64,000 nt of DNA from Pseudoalteromonas sp. A25. GTDB taxonomy: Bacteria; Pseudomonadota; Gammaproteobacteria; Enterobacterales; Alteromonadaceae. Under the pieces are notes generated by a model. The model did no database searches. It had not been told where the DNA came from and was given only the letters and a program-made list of their open reading frames with translations. The DNA is taken from positions 1,272,001 through 1,336,000 of the forward strand of contig NZ_AP021846.1 of the NCBI RefSeq assembly GCF_009176705.1. Reading direction: 5' to 3'. Positions within the stretch are counted from its first letter, which is position 1. Every line of letters begins with the position of its first letter. The position numbers and the translations under genes are program-made. Below are positions 183 through 17,496 of this stretch, one piece after another.

Positions 183-1274
183 GTGAGTGATTTATTATCC
201 CAAGATGAAATTGATGCGCTATTACACGGTGTTGATGAAGTCGAAGAAGAAGAGATAAGTGACGGTGATGAAGGGGATTCTAACGCACTGCAATATGACT
301 TTTCTTCACAAGACCGTATCGTTCGTGGTCGCATGCCGACCTTGGAAATTGTTAATGAGCGATTCGCCCGACATATGCGGATAAGCTTGTTTAACATGAT
401 GCGCCGAACAGCTGAAGTATCTATAAACGGTGTTCAGATGTTGAAATTTGGAGAGTACATTCACACGTTGTTTGTACCCACCAGTTTGAATATGGTGCGC
501 TTTAGACCGCTAAAGGGAACAGGTCTGATCACCATGGAAGCTCGGCTAGTTTTTATACTTGTGGATAACTTTTTTGGTGGCGATGGTCGATATCACGCCA
601 AAATCGAAGGTCGAGAGTTTACCCCGACTGAGCGACGTATCGTTCAAATGCTACTAAAAATCATTTTTGAAGACTACAAAGAAGCTTGGGCGCCAGTGAT
701 GGACGTATCATTTGAGTACCTCGATTCTGAAGTTAACCCTGCAATGGCGAATATTGTAAGTCCAACAGAGGTTGTAGTTATTAGCTCCTTCCATATTGAG
801 TTAGATGGCGGCGGGGGCGATTTTCATATTTCGTTGCCATATTCAATGTTAGAGCCTATCAGAGAATTGCTTGATGCAGGGGTTCAATCAGATACCGAAG
901 ACACTGACTTGCGATGGAGTAAGGCGCTGCGCGATGAGATCATGGATGTAGAAGTAGAGCTATCAACACAGTTGTTGGAAATCGACTTAACGCTTGCTCA
1001 AATTATGGAGTTAAAAGCAGGTGATGTTATCCCAGTTGAAATGCCTGAATACATTACCGTGTTTGTTGAAGAACTGCCTACCTTTAGAGCTAAAATGGGA
1101 CGTTCAAGGGATAATGTTGCTTTACAAATTAGTGAGAAGATTAAGCGCCCAGAGTCTGTTAAGTCTGAGCTTCACGTGTTCACCAAAGGTGGCAAAAAAC
1201 TCGATTCAGATGCTGAACTGGCAGAATTAGAAGAAGACTTACATCTGTCTGAAGGTGTAGACTTAGATTGGTAA
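183..1274 (+). CDS. fliM: Flagellar motor switch protein FliM
   Basis: FliM forms the middle layer of the cytoplasmic C-ring and receives phosphorylated CheY to reverse rotation. The 363-aa product has the usual length. Residues 5-15 (LSQDEIDALLHG region) are the CheY-binding peptide, followed by an acidic linker, the central CheC-like domain and a C-terminal SpoA domain that pairs with FliN. The start is GTG at 183, placed so that the conserved N-terminal peptide begins at residue 2. It follows fliL by 8 bases and precedes fliN by 28 bases in the same operon. Identity is secure. Confidence 0.97.
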   Translation: MSDLLSQDEIDALLHGVDEVEEEEISDGDEGDSNALQYDFSSQDRIVRGRMPTLEIVNERFARHMRISLFNMMRRTAEVSINGVQMLKFGEYIHTLFVPTSLNMVRFRPLKGTGLITMEARLVFILVDNFFGGDGRYHAKIEGREFTPTERRIVQMLLKIIFEDYKEAWAPVMDVSFEYLDSEVNPAMANIVSPTEVVVISSFHIELDGGGGDFHISLPYSMLEPIRELLDAGVQSDTEDTDLRWSKALRDEIMDVEVELSTQLLEIDLTLAQIMELKAGDVIPVEMPEYITVFVEELPTFRAKMGRSRDNVALQISEKIKRPESVKSELHVFTKGGKKLDSDAELAELEEDLHLSEGVDLDW

Positions 1275-5087: not shown

Positions 5088-7184
5088 ATGGAATTTAAAG
5101 CGTTTTTATCGCAATTAAACAGAGACAAAAAAGAATATGCTAAAGGGGTAGGTACGCCGGTACTGGTTCTTGCAGCGTTAGGTATGGTTATTTTACCGTT
5201 ACCTCCTTTTCTGTTAGACATTCTATTCTCTTTTAACATTGCTCTGGCATTAGTTGTTCTTTTGGTGACTGTTTACACCATGAAACCGCTAGAGTTTGGC
5301 ATGTTTCCAGCTGTATTACTTATTGCAACTATTATGCGTCTTGCTTTGAACGTAGCAAGTACCCGAGTGGTGCTCTTAGAAGGGCATAATGGTGGAGATG
5401 CTGCGGGTAAAGTTATCGAGGCATTTGGCTCGGTAGTTATTGGTGGTAACTATGCTGTTGGTTTAGTGGTTTTCTTAATTCTCATTATTATCAATTTTGT
5501 AGTAATTACTAAGGGTGCTGGGCGTATTTCAGAAGTATCAGCACGTTTTACGTTAGATGCGATGCCCGGTAAGCAAATGGCAATAGATGCAGATTTGAAT
5601 GCAGGCTTTATTAGTGCTGAAGACGCTAGAGCGCGCCGTGAGGAAGTTACCAGAGAAGCTGATTTTTACGGTTCAATGGATGGTGCCAGTAAGTTTGTTA
5701 AGGGCGATGCAATCGCTGGTATTGTGATTTTAGCCATCAATATCATTGGTGGTTTATTTGTTGGTATGATCCAACATGATTTGTCGTTCAGCAGAGCGAT
5801 GGAAGTATATACCTTACTAACTATTGGTGATGGTTTAGTTGCTCAGCTTCCTTCGCTACTTTTATCCATTGGTACTGCGATTGTTGTTACGCGTCAAAAT
5901 GAGTCTCACAACATGGGAGACCAATTTAAAACGCAGCTAGGTAATGAAAAGTCGTTATTTATTGCTTCAGGGATCTTGATTGTTATGGGAGTTGTACCAG
6001 GTATGCCCCATATTGCATTTTTAAGTTTAGGCGCATTGCTTGGTTATCTCGCTTATTTCACTCAAAAACAGAAGAAAGAAGCTGCTGAAAGTACGGCAGA
6101 TCAAAGTAATAAAGGCGTTGATGTTGCGAGCAAGCAAGAGCAAAAAGAACTTGGATGGGATGATGTCCAGCCAGTGGATGTGATTGGTTTGGAAGTGGGT
6201 TATCGATTAATACCTTTAGTGGACCAATCTCAAGGTGGCGAGCTACTTAGTCGTATCAAAGGGGTGCGTAAGAAGTTATCCCAAGAACTTGGCTTTTTGA
6301 TTCCACCGGTACACATTCGTGACAATTTAGAGCTAGACCCAAATGCCTATAACATTACTTTGATGGGTGTTGGTTCGGGTGAGGGGGAGCTAAAGCATGG
6401 CGATGAGCTTGCTATTAATCCAGGGCAAGTATTTGGTCCTATCAAAGGAATAGAAACAAAAGACCCTGCTTTTGGTTTAGATGCGGTATGGATAAAACCA
6501 GAGCAAAAAGATGAAGCGCACTCGTTAGGTTATACGGTTGTTGATGCGGCTACTGTGGTTGCAACACATATCAGTCAGCTATTAACGAATAATGCATCAC
6601 TTTTACTTGGTCATGAAGAAGTACAAAACTTACTAGATATGTTAGCTAAGAGCCACCCACGCCTAGTTGAAGGGTTGGTGCCAGATGTTTTACCGCTTAC
6701 TACGGTAGTAAAAGTATTACAAAACTTACTAAATGAAGGTGTGGCAATTCGTGATATGCGCTCCATTGTTCAGACTCTTGTTGAATATGGGCCACGTAGC
6801 CAAGACCCTGATGTATTAACGGCTGCAGTAAGAATTTCACTACGCAGATTAATAGTTCAAGATGCTGTGGGCAACGCAGATGAAATCCCTGTCATAACAT
6901 TGGCGCCTGAGTTGGAACAGATGTTGCATCAGTCACTTCAGAACGCAGGTGATGAAGGGGCTGGTATCGAACCAGGTCTTGCAGAGCGACTTCAAAGTTC
7001 ATTAAGAGAAGCTCATCAAACGCAAGAAATGCTTGGAGATCCTTCCATTTTATTAACCTCAGGTATGTTAAGAAGTGTGCTTTCAAGATTTGTTAAACAT
7101 ACGATCCCCGGCCTTCGCGTGATGTCATATCAAGAAGTGCCAGATGAAAGACAAATTAAGATTGTGAGCTCAGTTGGACAGTAA
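5088..7184 (+). CDS. flhA: Flagellar export gate protein FlhA
   Basis: FlhA is the large export-gate subunit that couples proton flow to export and binds chaperone-substrate complexes through its cytoplasmic nonamer ring. The 698-aa product has the N-terminal membrane part with about eight helices and the FHIPEP-family stretch 'MRLALNVASTRVVLLEGH' (about residues 85-100), a charged linker near 330-360, and the soluble domain to the end. Length is normal. It heads the second transcriptional block behind the sigma-54 promoter. Confidence 0.97.
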   Translation: MEFKAFLSQLNRDKKEYAKGVGTPVLVLAALGMVILPLPPFLLDILFSFNIALALVVLLVTVYTMKPLEFGMFPAVLLIATIMRLALNVASTRVVLLEGHNGGDAAGKVIEAFGSVVIGGNYAVGLVVFLILIIINFVVITKGAGRISEVSARFTLDAMPGKQMAIDADLNAGFISAEDARARREEVTREADFYGSMDGASKFVKGDAIAGIVILAINIIGGLFVGMIQHDLSFSRAMEVYTLLTIGDGLVAQLPSLLLSIGTAIVVTRQNESHNMGDQFKTQLGNEKSLFIASGILIVMGVVPGMPHIAFLSLGALLGYLAYFTQKQKKEAAESTADQSNKGVDVASKQEQKELGWDDVQPVDVIGLEVGYRLIPLVDQSQGGELLSRIKGVRKKLSQELGFLIPPVHIRDNLELDPNAYNITLMGVGSGEGELKHGDELAINPGQVFGPIKGIETKDPAFGLDAVWIKPEQKDEAHSLGYTVVDAATVVATHISQLLTNNASLLLGHEEVQNLLDMLAKSHPRLVEGLVPDVLPLTTVVKVLQNLLNEGVAIRDMRSIVQTLVEYGPRSQDPDVLTAAVRISLRRLIVQDAVGNADEIPVITLAPELEQMLHQSLQNAGDEGAGIEPGLAERLQSSLREAHQTQEMLGDPSILLTSGMLRSVLSRFVKHTIPGLRVMSYQEVPDERQIKIVSSVGQ

Positions 7185-10327: not shown

Positions 10328-10711
10328 TTGGATAAAAACATGAAAATTCTCGTGGTTGATGATTTTTCTACAATGAGGAGAATAATCAAAAACCTGCTTA
10401 GAGATTTAGGCTTTACCAATGTACAAGAAGCTGACGATGGTAGTACTGCGCTTCCAATGCTACAAAATCAAGAGTTTGATTTTGTGGTCACTGATTGGAA
10501 TATGCCTGGCATGCAAGGTATAGATTTGCTCAGAGCAATTAGGGCGGATGAAAACCTTAAGCACATCCCAGTGTTAATGGTGACAGCGGAAGCCAAGAAA
10601 GAGCAAATTGTAGCAGCAGCGCAAGCTGGGGTTAACGGTTATATCGTCAAACCTTTTACTGCAGGAACACTAAAAACTAAGTTAGAAAAAGTGTTTGAAC
10701 GTTTAGGCTAA
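10328..10711 (+). CDS. cheY: Chemotaxis response regulator CheY
   Basis: CheY is the single-domain receiver that carries the phosphoryl signal from CheA to FliM. The 127-aa protein has the acid pair DD near residues 14-15, the phospho-acceptor Asp in VTDWNMPG, the conserved Thr of MVTAEAKK and the Lys of VKPF. The start is taken as TTG at 10328 because GGAGG lies about 5 bases before it; the next ATG at 10340 (MKILVVDD) would be 17 bases from that site. This N-terminal extension (MDKNMK) is also usual in Vibrio CheY. Confidence 0.96.
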
Positions 10712-10731: not shown

Positions 10732-11514
10732 ATGTCAACGCCTTCTGTGCCGCAGATCAGCCTTGAACAGGCGAAACAGCTTGTTGCTTATTTAGAACAA
10801 GGCGAACAAGAAAAAGCAGATCAATTAATTTTAGAAGCTGCGAACAAAGAGCAATCAGAGTTGTTTGCAGAGGTCGGTAAGTTAACACGACAGCTGCATG
10901 AATCTTTGAAAAACTTTGAACTCGATACGCGTCTTGCTGATTTGACGACTGAAGCCCTTCCTGATGCAAAGCAACGTTTAAATTATGTCATGGAAATGAC
11001 AGAAAACGCTGCAAATAAAACGATGGATGCCGTAGAGGCAAGCTTGCCTTTGGCCCAACAGTTAGCGGATGACCTGTCAAGCATAAAACCAACTTGGGAT
11101 CGTCTCATGAGACGTGATATCCAACTAGGTGAATTTAAATCTCTATGTCATGATTTAGATAAGTTTATGCAAGGGTCTCAAACGCGAACAGATGAGTTAC
11201 AAAGCTTGATGACGAACGTGTTGATGGCGCAAGACTATCAAGACTTAACAGGGCAAGTGATCCGTCGAGTGATCGAGCTGGTTAGAGAAGTTGAAGATAG
11301 CCTTATCAATTTGTTGACCGTATTTGGCACGTCAGACGAACTACCCAGCAAAAACAAACAAGTTCAAAGCAATGTTAGTTCGCAAAATGATGTTGATGTT
11401 GACGTTAATGAAATCTCGGGGCCAGAAGGTCCAATTATTGATGCAGATCAGCGAGATGATGTTGTGTCTGGTCAAGATGAAGTTGATGATTTGCTATCAA
11501 GTTTAGGCTTCTAA
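10732..11514 (+). CDS. cheZ: CheY-P phosphatase CheZ
   Basis: CheZ removes phosphate from CheY-P as a long four-helix-bundle dimer. The 260-aa product is largely helical with the catalytic region 'MAQDYQDLTGQVIRRVIEL' (catalytic Gln in the QDLTGQ segment), an acidic flexible linker (about 200-245), and the C-terminal CheY-binding peptide DEVDDLLSSLGF (249-260). A purine-rich ribosome-binding site (AAGGAGAGG) precedes the ATG. It sits 20 bases after cheY and 13 before cheA. Confidence 0.95.
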   Translation: MSTPSVPQISLEQAKQLVAYLEQGEQEKADQLILEAANKEQSELFAEVGKLTRQLHESLKNFELDTRLADLTTEALPDAKQRLNYVMEMTENAANKTMDAVEASLPLAQQLADDLSSIKPTWDRLMRRDIQLGEFKSLCHDLDKFMQGSQTRTDELQSLMTNVLMAQDYQDLTGQVIRRVIELVREVEDSLINLLTVFGTSDELPSKNKQVQSNVSSQNDVDVDVNEISGPEGPIIDADQRDDVVSGQDEVDDLLSSLGF

Positions 11515-11527
11515 TAGGAGAGTATGC

Positions 11528-13738
11528 ATGAGCTTTGAAGTCGATGAAGATATCCTACAAGACTTTCTCGTAGAAGCCGGGGAAATTCTAGAGCTGCTGT
11601 CGGAGCAGCTTGTTGAGTTGGAAAATAACCCTGAAGATAAAGACCTACTGAATGCAATTTTTAGAGGTTTCCATACTGTAAAGGGTGGTGCTGGCTTTTT
11701 AAGTATGACTGAGTTGGTCGATGCCTGTCATGGTGCCGAAAACGTTTTTGATGTATTACGCCAAGGACAGCGAAAAGTCACTTCAGAGCTGATGGATGTT
11801 ATTCTCCAATCGCTTGATACTATCAATGAAATGTTCGGCCATATTCAAAACCGTGAACAACCGGAGCCAGCAGATCCTGCTCTTCTTGAAACATTACACC
11901 AGCTTAGTAAACCTCAGTCAGAGGATGAAGTCATAGACTTACCGGATGTAGCTGAACCAGAGGTACCGGTATCAGAAAGCCCTAGCCAGTCAGAAATGAT
12001 TGATGCAGATGATGTTTTGTTTGATATTGATTCAGCGGGTGATGGTACTGAGCAAGATGGTGGTATTGATGAAATAACTGAAGATGAATTTGAAAGCTTG
12101 TTAGATGAGCTACATGGAACTGGAAACGGCCCAGCTAAGGCGGCAAAGGAACCACAAGCTAGCGATTCGCAAAGTGATGGTGATATCACAGATGATGAAT
12201 TTGACAGCTTGCTTGATGAACTTCATGGTGTAGGCAGTTTTGGTACCATTAAGAAAGATGACTCACCAGCACCTGCCCAGGCATCGAGTGAAGCTGCTTC
12301 GAACTCTTCGACAGATTCCGATGACGAAATTAATGACGACGAGTTTGAAGCTTTGCTTGATGAGTTACACGGAAAAGGCAGTGCGCCTCGTTCGGTTGAA
12401 ACGAATCAAGATAAACCAAAGCAAGCAGCATCTCCTCAGCCTGCAAAGCCAGTTGAGGCGCCAAAGCCACCTCCGGCTGCTAAAGCGCCATCACCAGCGC
12501 CAGCATCCAAAACGCCTGTATCAGAGCCTGCAGCGGCTCCACCAGCTGCGAAAAAGGCACCTGCACCTCAAGCTGAAACAACTGTTCGAGTGGATACCAA
12601 ACGACTTGATCAGATTATGAATATGGTTGGTGAGTTAGTATTAGTTAGAAACAGGTTGGTTAGCCTAGCCAACAACACCAACAGTGAGGCAATGGGTAAG
12701 GCAATATCAAATCTTGATGTTGTTACGGCAGATTTGCAGGGTGCAGTAATGAAAACCCGGATGCAGCCAATTAAGAAGGTTTTTGGTCGTTTTCCTCGAG
12801 TCGTGAGAGATTTGGCAAGAAGCCTTAAAAAAGATATCAACTTAGTTTTGGAAGGTGAAGAGACAGATTTAGATAAGAATCTTGTTGAGGCTCTTGCTGA
12901 TCCGCTTGTTCACCTTGTTCGAAACTCTGTTGATCATGGTATAGAAATGCCAGATGTACGTGAAGCTGCAGGAAAAATCCGTACAGGTACGGTCACATTA
13001 GCAGCCTCGCAAGAGGGCGATCATATCTTGTTGACTATCAGAGATGATGGTGCAGGTATGGACCCTGAAAAACTTAAGAAGATTGCGATAAACAAAGGTG
13101 TAATTGACTCTGATCAGGCTAGTAGACTGTCAGATACAGAAGCTTATAACCTCATATTTGCACCAGGATTTTCGACTAAAGAGGAAATCTCAGACATATC
13201 TGGTCGTGGTGTGGGCATGGATGTTGTGAAGACAAAAATCACTCAGCTTAATGGTTCCATTAATATTCAGTCTGAGCTGGGTGTGGGAACTGTACTAGAG
13301 ATTAAAGTACCACTGACACTGGCTATCTTACCGACATTAATGGTTGTGGTTGGTCAACAAACATTTGCTCTGCCTTTGGCAGGTGTAAGCGAAATCTTCC
13401 ATTTAGATTTAACTAAAACCAACATTGTTGATGGGCAATTAACCATCATTGTTCGTGAAAAAGCGATACCCCTATTCTATTTAGAGCATTGGCTGGTTAA
13501 AGGCGCTGATAGAAGTACTCGTAAAGCTGAAGGGCATGTTGTTATTGTGCAAATTGGAACTAAACAAGTTGGTTTTGTTGTTGATTCATTAATTGGTCAA
13601 GAAGAAGTTGTTATCAAGCCCCTTGATGCGTTGCTACAGGGTACACCAGGTATGGCTGGTGCGACCATTACATCAGATGGTGGTATTGCCCTTATATTGG
13701 ATGTACCTAATATGCTTAAGTATTATGCGGGCAAATAA
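11528..13738 (+). CDS. cheA: Chemotaxis histidine kinase CheA
   Basis: CheA autophosphorylates in response to chemoreceptors and passes phosphate to CheY and CheB. The 736-aa protein has a P1 Hpt domain with the phospho-accepting His49 (FRGFHTVKGG), a long acidic and Pro/Ala-rich region (about 130-350), then P3 dimerisation, the P4 ATPase domain with the N box (LVRNSVDHGIE, 463-473) and G box (DDGAGMD, 506-512), and the P5 CheW-like domain. No ordinary P2 domain is obvious. Instead three near-identical 15-residue copies of I-[TN]-[ED]-D-E-F-[ED]-x-L-L-D-E-L-H-G lie at 183-197, 220-234 and 268-282. Confidence 0.96.
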   Translation: MSFEVDEDILQDFLVEAGEILELLSEQLVELENNPEDKDLLNAIFRGFHTVKGGAGFLSMTELVDACHGAENVFDVLRQGQRKVTSELMDVILQSLDTINEMFGHIQNREQPEPADPALLETLHQLSKPQSEDEVIDLPDVAEPEVPVSESPSQSEMIDADDVLFDIDSAGDGTEQDGGIDEITEDEFESLLDELHGTGNGPAKAAKEPQASDSQSDGDITDDEFDSLLDELHGVGSFGTIKKDDSPAPAQASSEAASNSSTDSDDEINDDEFEALLDELHGKGSAPRSVETNQDKPKQAASPQPAKPVEAPKPPPAAKAPSPAPASKTPVSEPAAAPPAAKKAPAPQAETTVRVDTKRLDQIMNMVGELVLVRNRLVSLANNTNSEAMGKAISNLDVVTADLQGAVMKTRMQPIKKVFGRFPRVVRDLARSLKKDINLVLEGEETDLDKNLVEALADPLVHLVRNSVDHGIEMPDVREAAGKIRTGTVTLAASQEGDHILLTIRDDGAGMDPEKLKKIAINKGVIDSDQASRLSDTEAYNLIFAPGFSTKEEISDISGRGVGMDVVKTKITQLNGSINIQSELGVGTVLEIKVPLTLAILPTLMVVVGQQTFALPLAGVSEIFHLDLTKTNIVDGQLTIIVREKAIPLFYLEHWLVKGADRSTRKAEGHVVIVQIGTKQVGFVVDSLIGQEEVVIKPLDALLQGTPGMAGATITSDGGIALILDVPNMLKYYAGK

Positions 13739-13790: not shown

Positions 13791-13817
13791 AGATCTGAAT
13801 TTTAAACGAGCGTGCCA

Positions 13818-14930
13818 ATGGCAGTTAAAGTATTAGTTGTAGATGATTCGAGCTTTTTTAGACGTAGAGTCAGCGAAATTCTTGAATTGGATAGTGACAT
13901 CAAAGTAATCGACTTTGCCGTTAATGGTAAAGAGGCTGTGGAGAAAGCGGCATCTTTGAAGCCTGACGTGATCACTATGGATGTGGAAATGCCCGTGCTA
14001 GATGGTATTAGCGCGGTAAAGCAGATAATGGCATCTAATCCAACACCAATATTGATGTTTTCGTCTTTAACTAGAGAGGGGGCAAGTGCCACCCTAGATG
14101 CGCTCGATGCAGGTGCTTTGGATTTTTTACCTAAAAAGTTTGAAGATATTGCTCGCAATAGTGATGACGCGATAAAGTCTTTACAGACAAAAGTAAAGGA
14201 AATCGGTCGTCGAAGATTGTCAAGGTTCTCAACTATTGCGCCAACTCGACAATCGACAAGACCTGCTGCCGGTAGTAAAACAAGTATAAGTCAACCCGAT
14301 AGAACCTTTCAGCGTGCAGGGGCGTTAAGTACCTCTGGCAGTACTGCTAAGGCATCTGGTAAAAAGTATCAATTAGTCGCAATTGGTACTTCAACAGGTG
14401 GGCCTGTTGCTTTACAAACTATCTTGACACAGTTACCTGCAAATTTCCCATATCCCATTTTACTGATTCAGCATATGCCTGCGGCATTTACACCTGCATT
14501 TGCCAGTCGCTTAAACAGCCTTTGTAAAATACGAGTAAAAGAAGCACAACAGGGGGACAGGCTCGAAGCAGGGGTTGCCTATCTAGCTCCCGGTGGACAA
14601 CAAATGATGGTTGAATCTCGTGGCACCCTCAAAGTTTTTGAAGATGACAGCCCGCGTATCACTTATAAGCCGAGTGTGGATGTTACTTTTGCCAGTGCTG
14701 CAAAGGCTTATCAAGGTGATGTATTGGCTGTTGTACTCACTGGTATGGGGGCCGATGGACGAGATGGCGCTCGCATGCTTAAGCAAGCTGGTGCAACTAT
14801 TTGGGCACAAGACGAAAAAACATGTGTCGTTTATGGTATGCCTCAAGCAATTGCTAATGCAGGCTTAGCCAGTGAGCACATAGCGCTACCTGATGTAGCT
14901 GTGCGTATAACTAAAGAGGTAGGTTGTTAA
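13818..14930 (+). CDS. cheB: Chemoreceptor methylesterase/deamidase CheB
   Basis: CheB demethylates and deamidates chemoreceptors when its receiver domain is phosphorylated by CheA. The product (370 aa from ATG 13818) has a receiver domain (phospho-Asp in TMDVEMPV), a linker near 140-190, and the C-terminal esterase with the Ser of GTSTGGP, the His of QHMP and the Asp in MGADGRDG. The frame is also open from GTG 13812, adding two residues (MP); the ATG is preferred because family members begin MA-[VI][14 protein letters not shown]. There is no cheR nearby. Confidence 0.95.
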
Positions 14931-14998: not shown

Positions 14999-15769
14999 GT
15001 GAAAATTTGGACAGTAGCAAACCAAAAAGGCGGAGTAGGGAAAACCACTACGACAGTGAGTTTAGGGGGGATATTAGCACTACAAGGTAAACGAGTATTG
15101 CTTATCGATACCGACCCGCATGCTTCATTGACCTATTATTTTGGCATTGACTCTGAAGAATTAGAGATCAGTGTTTATGATATTTTTGCACGTGGTAGTG
15201 CAATGCAAGGTGAAGAGATTTTGCAAGCACTTTGCCCGTCAACCATTGATAATTTAGATATTTTGCCCGCAACGATGGCAATTGCCACATTAGATAGAAG
15301 CTTGGGAAACCGAGCTGGTATGGGGCTGGTATTAAAGAAGGCTTTGGAAAAAATAAGTGAACATTATGACTATGCAATATTAGACTGCCCGCCTGTGCTT
15401 GGTGTGCTCATGGTTAATGCTCTGGCTGCGAGTGAGAGAATTCTGATCCCCGTGCAAACAGAGTTCTTGGCGCTAAAAGGGTTGGATAGAATGATGCGTA
15501 CGATGGAATTAATGCAAAGTTCGCAATCGAAGAAATATCAATATACCATAATACCAACAATGTACGATAAACGTACCAAAGCATCTTTAGAAGCATATAA
15601 AACTTTGTTGACGACTTATAAAAATTACGTATGGCCAGGTGTAATCCCTGTTGACACTAAGTTTCGAGACGCGAGTTTGGCACAAAAGGTGCCTATAGAA
15701 TACTGTCCTAAATCAAGGGGCGTATTTGCTTATCGCGCACTACTAGATTATTTGTTGCAGGTCAAATAG
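14999..15769 (+). CDS. parC: ParA-like ATPase for polar chemotaxis arrays, ParC
   Basis: The 256-aa product is a ParA/Soj-type ATPase with a deviant Walker A motif KGGVGKTT at residues 10-17 and the downstream 'DTDPHASLTYYFG' and 'DCPPVLG' motifs. In Vibrio the ParA-like protein encoded between cheB and the CheW-like parP is ParC, which directs chemotaxis arrays to the cell pole and ensures that both daughters inherit one. The identical neighbourhood here supports the same role. It must not be confused with topoisomerase IV ParC. The start is GTG 14999, needed to keep the N-terminal beta strand (MKIWTVANQKGG). Confidence 0.88.
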   Translation: MKIWTVANQKGGVGKTTTTVSLGGILALQGKRVLLIDTDPHASLTYYFGIDSEELEISVYDIFARGSAMQGEEILQALCPSTIDNLDILPATMAIATLDRSLGNRAGMGLVLKKALEKISEHYDYAILDCPPVLGVLMVNALAASERILIPVQTEFLALKGLDRMMRTMELMQSSQSKKYQYTIIPTMYDKRTKASLEAYKTLLTTYKNYVWPGVIPVDTKFRDASLAQKVPIEYCPKSRGVFAYRALLDYLLQVK

Positions 15770-15777
15770 AGGTATAA

Positions 15778-16548
15778 ATGAGTAAACATTTGTTTGCTAA
15801 TGAAAAAGTAATGAAGCAGTATCTTGGGGCGCTACTTTCAGAGGAAGAGCCTGAAGATAAATCATTGCTGCCTGTAGCCAAATTACTAGAACAGGTGTCT
15901 GATGTTTCTGAATTAAAACAAGCTGAGCCGAAAAAAGTTGCGCAGACCCAAGAGGCTGAAAAGGTCAAAGCTGACTTTGTTGAAGAGCAGGAAATCCCTG
16001 AAGAACAAACAAAAAATCTTGAGATAACAGAAAATAATACTATTATCAAAGAAACAGCCGAAGCTTTAAATCAATTAGTTAGCGCGAAAGAAGCTTATGG
16101 TGAAAATGAATTCCAAGCGTTATTTTTTGAAGTGGCTGGTTTAACGCTTGCAGTACCTTTAAAGTCTCTGGGTGGTATTCATCAGCTTGGTGAAGTTAAC
16201 CAGTTGTTTGGCAAACCAAAGTGGTTCAAAGGCGTGATGTTAAATCGCGACGAAAAGTTAAACGTTGTTGATACTGCTCGTTGGGTTATGCCTGAAAAGT
16301 ATACTGCAGAATTGGAAGCTGGCCTCAATTATCAGTATTTAATCACTTTAGGTGATAGCCCATGGGGATTGTTGGCGGAAAACTTGGTAAATAACATTAC
16401 TTTACAGCCTGATGATGTAAAATGGCGAACAGGTGATGGTAAAAGACCATGGCTAGCTGGCGTAATAAAAGAAAAAATGTGCGCTTTGATTGATGTAGAA
16501 AACTTAAACCGCTTGCTTGAGCAAGGCCTCGATAGTCGAGAGCAGTAA
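15778..16548 (+). CDS. parP: CheW-like polar array protein ParP
   Basis: The 256-aa protein has an acidic, Glu/Lys/Gln-rich disordered N-terminal region (about 1-105) and a C-terminal CheW-like domain (about 110-250, with 'FEVAGLTLAVPLKSLGGI'). In Vibrio this gene, between parC and cheW, encodes ParP, which binds ParC with its N-terminal part and CheA and receptors with its C-terminal part, so that arrays are held at the pole. The gene starts 8 bases after parC. Name and role come from synteny and domain layout. Confidence 0.87.
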   Translation: MSKHLFANEKVMKQYLGALLSEEEPEDKSLLPVAKLLEQVSDVSELKQAEPKKVAQTQEAEKVKADFVEEQEIPEEQTKNLEITENNTIIKETAEALNQLVSAKEAYGENEFQALFFEVAGLTLAVPLKSLGGIHQLGEVNQLFGKPKWFKGVMLNRDEKLNVVDTARWVMPEKYTAELEAGLNYQYLITLGDSPWGLLAENLVNNITLQPDDVKWRTGDGKRPWLAGVIKEKMCALIDVENLNRLLEQGLDSREQ

Positions 16549-16572: not shown

Positions 16573-17070
16573 ATGAGCCAAGATAGACTACTTTCCGCAG
16601 ACAAAAATGCCGATAGTAATGATGAAGTTCTTCAATGGGTGACCTATAAACTCGAGGATGAAACTTACGGTATTAATGTAATGCAGGTACAAGAGGTATT
16701 GCGTTATACAGAAATTGCACCCGTTCCAGGCGCACCCGCATATGTTTTAGGAATAATCAATCTGCGTGGTAACGTTGTAACAGTTATAGATACGCGTGCT
16801 CGCTTTGGGTTGGTCAGCTCGGAAGTAACCGATAACTCTCGTATCGTTATAATTGAAGCTGAAAAGCAGGTTATTGGTATTTTAGTTGATAGTGTTGCTG
16901 AAGTAGTTTACCTGCGAAGTTCTGAGATAGACAGCGCGCCGAATATTGGTACTGAGGAGAGCGCAAAATTCATCCAAGGCGTATCTAATCGTGAAGGTGA
17001 GCTGCTTATTTTGGTTGATTTGAATAAGCTGCTCAGTGATGACGAGTGGGATGAGTTGAGTCACATATAA
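16573..17070 (+). CDS. cheW: Chemotaxis coupling protein CheW
   Basis: CheW links CheA to chemoreceptors in the array. The 165-aa protein is a single CheW domain with 'WVTYKLEDETYGINVMQVQE' near the N-terminus and 'IINLRGNVVTVIDTRARFG' in the middle, plus a short N-terminal extension. A good ribosome-binding site (TTTTTGGAG) precedes ATG 16573. It is followed 3 bases later by the DUF2802 gene. Confidence 0.95.
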   Translation: MSQDRLLSADKNADSNDEVLQWVTYKLEDETYGINVMQVQEVLRYTEIAPVPGAPAYVLGIINLRGNVVTVIDTRARFGLVSSEVTDNSRIVIIEAEKQVIGILVDSVAEVVYLRSSEIDSAPNIGTEESAKFIQGVSNREGELLILVDLNKLLSDDEWDELSHI

Positions 17071-17073
17071 ACT

Positions 17074-17496
17074 GTGGAAGTTGTAAACAATAATCTGGTT
17101 TTACTGGTAGTAATAGCTTCTTGCTTACTAACTTTGGTCTGCTTAGGGCTGGTATTTATGCTAAGCAAGCGTTTAGGTATTAGCCATCAAGAGATCCACT
17201 CCCTTAAGCATAAAGTTAAGGATGCTCATGATCAAACAGCCATTTTGCGCAGTGAAGTGGCTGAAGTAAGAAGTAGCTTGATGAACATAGGTAAACGTCT
17301 TGTTGCCTGTGAAAATTATGCAAAAGATATTGCGCAGCAGCAGGCTGCCCAAAAGTATGATGATCCAGACGCAAAAATTTACTCCCGAGCAGTTAAAATG
17401 ATTGAGCTTGGCGCAGACTTAGAAGAAATAATGCGCGAGTGTGAGCTACCTCGTGCAGAGGCCGAGCTACTGATGTCTTTACATCAAAAGTCTTAA
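17074..17496 (+). CDS. DUF2802 membrane protein of the chemotaxis cluster
   Basis: The 140-aa product has one N-terminal membrane helix (about residues 7-30), a probable coiled coil (about 35-95) and a small C-terminal segment with 'MIELGADLEEIMRECELPRAEAELLM' character, resembling a short helix-turn-helix-like fold. This matches the DUF2802 family found after cheW in Vibrio, Shewanella and relatives; its function is not established. The start is GTG 17074, three bases after the cheW stop. Its stop codon directly abuts the stop codon of the convergent gene at 17497. Confidence 0.85.
   Translation: MEVVNNNLVLLVVIASCLLTLVCLGLVFMLSKRLGISHQEIHSLKHKVKDAHDQTAILRSEVAEVRSSLMNIGKRLVACENYAKDIAQQQAAQKYDDPDAKIYSRAVKMIELGADLEEIMRECELPRAEAELLMSLHQKS

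Follow-up and report, generated by a model that had tools for sequence, protein, structure and literature searches.

The flagellar chemotaxis cluster of Pseudoalteromonas sp. A25 raises the question of how a CheA kinase in which no P2 domain is detected might hold CheY, and whether three copies of a short peptide in its linker could serve in place of that domain. The cluster lies in the window, by which we mean the whole stretch of 64,000 nucleotides analyzed here, part of a 4.74-Mb genome in two contigs. The genes run in the order fliM ... flhF-flhG-fliA-cheY-cheZ-cheA-cheB-parC-parP-cheW and are followed by a DUF2802 gene at 17074; the names fliM, flhF and flhG were assigned by eye. We take the cheYZ-cheA-cheB-parCP-cheW cluster to be class F6 in the published nomenclature. 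The encoded CheA carries the Hpt, H-kinase_dim, HATPase_c and CheW domains of Pfam. Its features and those of its neighbors are as follows.

195..230, plus strand: FliM N-terminal peptide LSQDEIDALLHG, residues 5-16 counted from the GTG at 183, a known type of CheY-binding peptide.
10328..10711, plus strand: cheY, the proposed ligand, which retains the basic residues on the face that binds FliM (Pfam, residue comparison).
11476..11511, plus strand: CheZ C-terminal peptide DEVDDLLSSLGF, residues 249-260 (cheZ from 10732; Pfam PF04344, E 5e-75).
11528..13738, plus strand: cheA, 736 aa, with P1 (Hpt), a linker holding three repeats, P3, P4 and P5, and P2 undetected (Pfam, hhalign, AlphaFold).
11549..11824, plus strand: P1 (Hpt) domain, CheA residues 8-99 (Pfam PF01627, E 4e-16).
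11909..12577, plus strand: P1-P3 linker, CheA residues 128-350, predicted unstructured save at the repeats (AlphaFold; conservation averages 29% where there is no repeat).
12074..12118, plus strand: repeat 1, ITEDEFESLLDELHG, CheA residues 183-197, predicted helix 185-195.
12185..12229, plus strand: repeat 2, ITDDEFDSLLDELHG, CheA residues 220-234, predicted helix 222-233, the best-conserved copy.
12329..12373, plus strand: repeat 3, INDDEFEALLDELHG, CheA residues 268-282, predicted helix 270-280.
12578..12757, plus strand: P3 dimerization domain, CheA residues 351-410 (Pfam PF02895).
13812..14930, plus strand: cheB, receiver domain and methylesterase, a possible second ligand (Pfam).
14999..15769, plus strand: parC, ParA-like ATPase (Pfam and cluster position).
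15778..16548, plus strand: parP, with a C-terminal CheW-like domain and a KRPWLAG stretch, the rival ligand (Pfam, sequence).
16573..17070, plus strand: cheW (Pfam).

The sequence-only reading had described three 15-residue repeats in CheA, and all three were recovered in the translation at the residues it gave; its interval for them, 12074..12376, begins correctly but runs past the third copy, which ends at 12373. It had also pointed to the FliM peptide D-E-I-D-A-L-L-H-G at residues 5-15, where the letters are right but the residues are 8-16, the FliM of the window beginning M-S-D-L-L-S-Q-D-E-I-D-A-L-L-H-G, and to a related peptide at the end of CheZ, which is indeed there (DEVDDLLSSLGF). The common core it proposed, D-E-[FIV]-[ED]-x-L-L, was borne out in a loose form, since all five sites match the pattern [DE][DE][FILVMY][DE]x[LIM][LIM]. 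This pattern occurs five times in the window (six frames, at least 60 aa), at the three repeats, FliM and CheZ; because it matches those five sites and nothing else there, the repeats are not a product of chance. Over the 4.74 Mb of the genome, D-E-[hydrophobic]-[DE]-x-L-L written as a DNA pattern gave 14 matches versus 2 for the reversed pattern used as control, with three in CheA, one in FliM, one in CheZ, three in a HubP protein and six elsewhere. HubP, the polar landmark protein of the same genome, carries peptides similar to the repeats.

The repeat consensus is I-[TS]-[DE]-[DE]-E-F-[ED]-x-L-L-D-x-L-H-G, and its Phe-6 corresponds to F188, F225 and F273 in the window CheA. Third codon positions make up 26 of the 36 pairwise differences among the three DNA copies, as expected if selection acts on the protein sequence. 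A 15-position repeat profile found 270 copies across 160 linkers; at the same threshold, 8000 shuffled linkers yielded no copy. The seeds of this profile were chosen by an expression that fixes Phe-6 and restricts positions 5 and 7, and its own letter frequencies, thus pre-set, were not used as evidence.

The spread of the repeat was followed in two sets of CheAs. The window CheA served as query against 149 genomes from the class to which the window belongs, and 83 gave a match at E 1e-60 or better, from which 80 CheA stretches were taken as the best matches, some lower ones being skipped. To these were added 80 named loci from a contig scan, comprising Pseudomonas, Vibrio, Shewanella, Alteromonas, Marinobacter, Dyella, Allochromatium, Helicobacter, betaproteobacteria and others; L109 was dropped because the best CheA there was that of L086. 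The resulting table has 153 rows, from which L065 and L075 (cut or masked), L158, L190, L199 and L206 (near a contig start) and L182 (a complete linker of 31 residues) are excluded, and in which L057 and L145 probably are one genome entered twice, having the same CheA length and gene scores. The repeat is borne by 101 of the 153 CheAs, as one copy in 9, two in 30, three in 49 and four in 13. The three copies of the window CheA are not a special number. The repeat-bearing loci belong to the window's class or to records titled gammaproteobacteria, Acidithiobacillus or, in one case, Proteobacteria. The repeats are old and conserved in the CheA of many gammaproteobacteria.

Conservation within the linker is concentrated at the repeats. 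In 42 aligned window-type CheAs, the commonest residue had a mean share of 81% over the repeats, on a par with the 79% of P3-P5, against 29% elsewhere in the linker. The linker has 24 columns conserved at 90% or more; 22 of them fall inside repeats, and the other two sit 2 residues behind repeats 2 and 3. The core is near invariant in repeats 2 and 3 and less so in repeat 1, with Phe at residues 188, 225 and 273 in 93, 100 and 100% of the 42. The repeats are under strong selection.

We then asked what else the linker contains. AlphaFold2, given 42 sequences, modeled the window CheA with a mean pLDDT of 75, the last P1 helix ending at 126 and P3 starting at 357. The sole elements predicted between these points are the helices at 185-195, 222-233 and 270-280, which are the three repeats; as parts of a free chain, they have mean pLDDT values of 61-77 in their main ten-residue blocks, while pLDDT is below 50 over most of the linker outside them. 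No folded domain was predicted between P1 and P3 in this single-chain model.

Pfam detected no P2 in 56 or in 42 window-type CheAs, nor in any of 24 CheAs of other types, and since it is blind in the latter too, Pfam alone was rejected as proof of absence and hhalign with controls was used instead. Against a P2 profile made from 16 CheAs, the 96 repeat-type linkers together scored a probability of 0.1%, whereas five other P2s together scored 93.9%. Single P2 controls ranged widely (L110 97.9, L195 90.9, L203 88.8, L204 49.1, L183 13.7 and L095 0.7%). The second CheA of the window's genome (L001) matches the P2 profile at E 6e-40. The linker of a Photorhabdus CheA (L204) matched solved CheA chains, among them 2lp4, which comprises P1 and P2 with CheY according to the available part of PMC7184735; the window linker, compared with solved chains, matched kinesin alone, at E 0.4. 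The claim that the window CheA has no ordinary P2 thus stands on hhalign with controls and on the predicted linker, and a P2 elsewhere in the linker, the finding that the sequence-only reading had set against its docking idea, was sought by profile and by structure prediction with none recognizable.

Repeat and P2 were never found together among the 153 CheAs: 101 have the repeat without P2, 24 have P2 without the repeat, and 28 have neither. The Fisher p of 7e-14 for this table is overstated, the rows being related. The 24 P2-bearing rows comprise 20 found by profile at E below 0.01, 16 of them the profile's own seeds, and four added by hand: L204 by its match to solved chains, L183 and L196 as members of the five-row set, and L095 by eye only. 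Among the 28 with neither, six betaproteobacterial CheAs beside cheY-cheZ carry another element, which reads PDWxxLHxxV in four of them and has a looser form in the other two; of four CheAs from Campylobacterales, three carry [ML]SxxxVEAEIxRLL. The repeat linker shares with P2 the location between P1 and P3 and the proposed role in CheY binding. P2, however, is a folded domain, and the repeat linker has neither a predicted fold nor a match to the P2 profile.

The C-terminal end of CheZ binds CheY. The FliM N-terminus also has a role in CheY binding (PMC7355467, as far as its available text goes), and we compared the repeats with both peptides. A 10-position profile was built solely from the FliM N-termini of the surveyed loci and run over 3237 frames of at least 100 aa from 56 loci, FliM and CheZ being left out. 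CheA supplied 42 of the best 60 matches, with an AUC of 0.98, and for 46 of 54 linkers the best site outscored shuffles of its own linker (p<0.01). The top two matches outside CheA were a divergent CheZ end (L096) and a FliN N-terminus (L034), both identified by Pfam; FliA came third, a frame that resembles FliR by eye fourth, and another FliN (L074) fifth. A CheZ profile in the same scan placed CheA at 12 of the best 60 and passed p<0.01 in 6 of 54 linkers, while with a 9-position CheZ profile over 5658 frames CheA took 22 of the top 60 places and p<0.01 was passed in 35 of 98 linkers, some of the CheA matches lying outside the repeats. The likeness to FliM suggested from the window alone is thus strong and specific by the FliM-only profile; that to the CheZ end is present but modest, and clearly weaker than that to FliM.

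In register, the repeats share with the FliM peptide [LI]-[ST]-x-[DE]-E-[hydrophobic]-[DE]-A-L-L, including an acid that matches FliM Asp12, and they fit the FliM core [LI][ST]x[DE]E[IV][DE]ALL except that the hydrophobic position is Phe. FliM has Ile or Val there, whereas the CheA repeats have Phe and continue into D-x-L-H-G; moreover, the CheA peptides come as 1-4 copies inside a kinase linker, where CheY docking is putative. With the CheZ peptide the repeats share [hydrophobic]-[DE]-x-L-L-x-x-L in register, but that peptide is a single copy at the chain end, with G-F, and its statistical likeness to the repeats is much below that of FliM.

Part of the FliM likeness is a common helix-capping pattern, because the Pfam domain SHOCT (PF09851) matches the same stretch. 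SHOCT contains a T-x-E-E-F capping stretch, and it is this stretch that the match in the CheA repeats covers. The matches are mostly weak, reaching E 0.01 or better in 28 of 56 and 30 of 42 CheAs and exceeding the Pfam cut-off in 1 of 7; they cover only positions 11-28 of the 28 in the profile, and in the proteins displayed no stretch passes by itself. SHOCT, GemA and similar Pfam matches were therefore rejected as the identity of the repeats, being partial and mostly below cut-off, and are read as likeness in helix capping.

In an alternative reading, the partner of the helices would be a different receiver (CheB, CheV) or some other protein of the array, and they resemble FliM by convergence on a capped acidic amphipathic helix. 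The capping pattern common to SHOCT and the repeats is in its favor, as is the presence of similar peptides in HubP; because FliM-like peptides occur in HubP, such a peptide need not mean CheY. On the other hand, the best matches of the FliM profile are CheA, CheZ and FliN and not helices at large, FliA and other frames following, and every CheA found to bear the repeat is one in which P2 went undetected. We consider convergence unlikely.

A different partner, ParP, was the rival idea of the sequence-only reading. ParP binds a stretch of CheA, the LID, which was placed in the P2-P3 interval and described as confined to species with ParC and ParP (PMC7534058, PMC5706961, from the parts available). 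With P2 unseen here, the LID has to be sought in this same linker, and the repeats might be the LID or part of it, the stretch through which ParP would anchor CheA at the pole. In Vibrio, whose CheA is of the same type, the LID is likewise part of the P1-P3 linker, and loci with ParP hold more copies of the repeat, a mean of 2.9 in 67 loci versus 2.1 in 15 loci without (Mann-Whitney 6e-4, kinship uncorrected); the 67 were scored with a profile built from the same set and include the weak matches L087, L080 and L081 at 27, 55 and 57 bits.

The repeat nevertheless occurs where ParP is undetected, in contrast to the published description of the LID. We searched with the ParP profile 16 repeat-bearing genomes picked for a ParP-less locus, and 15 had no match above 31 bits, the exception being G134 at 68 bits. 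Four ParP-positive control genomes scored above 270 bits, although these are rows of the search profile; their CheW-level matches lay at 22-29 bits. This genome-wide check covered the 16 chosen genomes, the other ParP-less calls being made at the level of the locus, and some of the assemblies are incomplete (G001, 91%) or of uncertain completeness (L150, 2.7 Mb). The 15 ParP-less genomes keep 1-4 copies each, and Phe-6, the acid at 7, Leu-10 and Asp-11 are retained in all 31 copies that the profile found in them. In L150, a Photobacterium MAG, the end of cheB at 5252 is followed directly by the start of cheW at 5278; parC and parP are absent, and CheA still has three copies. Since 15 genomes whose ParP matches do not rise beyond the CheW level keep the repeats, with an unchanged core, ParP binding is improbable as their only role.

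Copy number was also compared with ParP along a tree of P3-P5. This was a quick tree of 86 rows (85 different), on which the positions of four long branches (L170, L087, L084 and L083) are uncertain. ParP status changes 9 times, at least 4 of them on well-supported branches, and after correction for kinship no link with copy number was found in 4 supported independent pairs, which have little power. A survey of copy number against P2 and ParP, as the sequence-only reading had proposed, found repeat and P2 apart throughout, and the association between ParP and copy number was no longer seen after kinship correction, in a comparison of little power. The ParP alternative is weakened as sole function, less so as a second one: one or two copies might dock CheY while another serves ParP, or CheY and ParP might compete for the same peptides. 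The unequal conservation of the copies, with repeat 1 less constrained than repeats 2 and 3, would fit a division of labor, as would the uncorrected excess of copies in ParP loci; the lack of any link in the kinship-corrected pairs, low in power as they are, tells against it. We regard such a dual role as doubtful, and no better a prospect than convergence.

The docking of CheY accounts best for these results in our view. Because the repeats are conserved and predicted to be helical, P2 is undetectable, repeat and P2 were never found together, the likeness to FliM is specific and the repeats persist where ParP is undetected, we propose that they probably are FliM-type peptides that would dock the CheY receiver on a disordered linker instead of a folded P2, and we assign this reading a probability of about 0.62. 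The binding of CheY, the face used, any preference for phosphorylation and the effect on transfer are inferences. Perhaps CheB is docked as an additional receiver.

The proposed ligand was examined as well. A CheY scoring above 170 bits is present in 95 of the repeat-bearing loci, and a comparison of these CheYs found Lys109 in 95, Lys119 in 94, Lys or Arg122 in 93, Lys or Arg91 in 87 and Lys or Arg92 in 90. In E. coli CheY, K119 contacts D12 of FliM and K122 contacts N16, and the same surface binds FliM, CheZ and CheA (PMC2883070, available text); the face is common to CheZ and FliM, and a V. cholerae FliM peptide was docked at helix 4 - strand 5 - helix 5 (PMC3774744, likewise). Conservation of these lysines is no independent proof of contact with CheA, because these CheYs also meet FliM and CheZ. 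CheY residues facing P2, including R92K, were changed upon takeover of CheY by a class F7 CheA, according to the available part of PMC7184735. Position 92 is Arg in 73 of the 95 repeat-bearing loci and Lys in the P2-bearing Photorhabdus locus.

In the mechanism we envisage, each repeat would form a short amphipathic helix with a capped end that lies against helix 4 - strand 5 - helix 5 of CheY, the face used by FliM and CheZ, with the acid at repeat position 7 replacing FliM Asp12 as partner of CheY Lys119. The copies, spaced by about 40 residues between P1 and P3, may together hold CheY, and perhaps CheB, near the phosphohistidine of P1, and CheY so held would receive phosphate faster. FliM peptides prefer phosphorylated CheY. 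This is a difficulty for docking, as the dock of a kinase should release its product; Phe-6 and the D-x-L-H-G end, absent from FliM, may alter the preference. Also counted against docking are the dispensability of P2 in some cases, as described in the available text of PMC10782961, and the 28 of 153 CheAs with neither P2 nor repeat.

A broader and more speculative extension, which we hold to be possible though not likely, is that throughout these polar chemotaxis systems one interchangeable peptide code for CheY is shared by the kinase CheA, the phosphatase CheZ, the motor protein FliM, FliN in certain species and, where the HubP branch is concerned, that polar landmark, so that CheY would be passed along graded competing sites with no P2.

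In the open-access literature, as far as its text was available (subscription papers mostly lie outside it), we found no description of these CheA repeats. A large survey found P2 to be missing from over half of its CheAs, and the available part of that survey proposes no substitute dock (PMC10782961). P. putida CheA was described with five domains like that of E. coli (PMC11978298, available text); the Pseudomonas CheAs of our survey set have the repeats and no P2 match. If docking on the repeats is true, a multivalent peptide tether takes the place of P2 in the flagellar CheAs of Pseudomonas, Vibrio, Shewanella and their relatives, and accounts that place P2 in such CheAs (PMC7534058 and PMC11978298, judged from their available text) would need a second look. 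Point mutations at F188, F225 and F273 make the sites testable.

FliM-like peptides, resembling the N-terminal peptide of FliM, were found in the acidic region of a HubP/FimV-type protein of Pseudoalteromonas sp. A25, encoded outside the window, and close to the N-terminus of two FliN proteins.

L127:3786-7883 (genome C1:1145785-1149882), HubP/FimV-type protein gene, FimV_Cterm E 3.7e-15
L034:18934-19437, FliN, FliMN_C match, peptide NQDDIDALL
L074:1593-2129, FliN, FliMN_C match, peptide SQDDVDSLM

The A25 HubP/FimV-type protein carries four FliM-like sites above 12 bits, compared to 0.46 in shuffled sequences. Such sites were absent from 15 of the 20 homologues fetched, and were counted in those from genome G122 (L241; 9 versus 0.29 in shuffles), Shewanella (L242; 5 versus 0.2) and Vibrio (L243; 2 versus 0.3), as well as in homologues L239 (2 versus 0.14) and L225 (1 versus 0.04). 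One published account places acidic repeats in HubP of Vibrio and Shewanella and describes them as missing from P. putida FimV (PMC12918733).

The chemotaxis cluster of a Photobacterium MAG was found to be missing parC and parP, and ParP had no match in that assembly.

L150:4137-5778, cheB followed directly by cheW

Both the 15-residue repeat of the window CheA and a P2 match were missing from the CheA linkers of six betaproteobacterial loci (L184, L185, L187, L191, L198 and L201), in each of which the cheA gene adjoins cheY-cheZ. The linker element PDWxxLHxxV is common to the first four, with a looser form in L198 and L201. Among four Campylobacterales CheA linkers compared, [ML]SxxxVEAEIxRLL was present in L173, L174 and L180, the last having two copies, and not in L178.

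The A25 genome encodes a second CheA, of another type than the window CheA.

L001:475-2565, second CheA, matches the P2 profile

A single genome therefore holds both kinds of linker.
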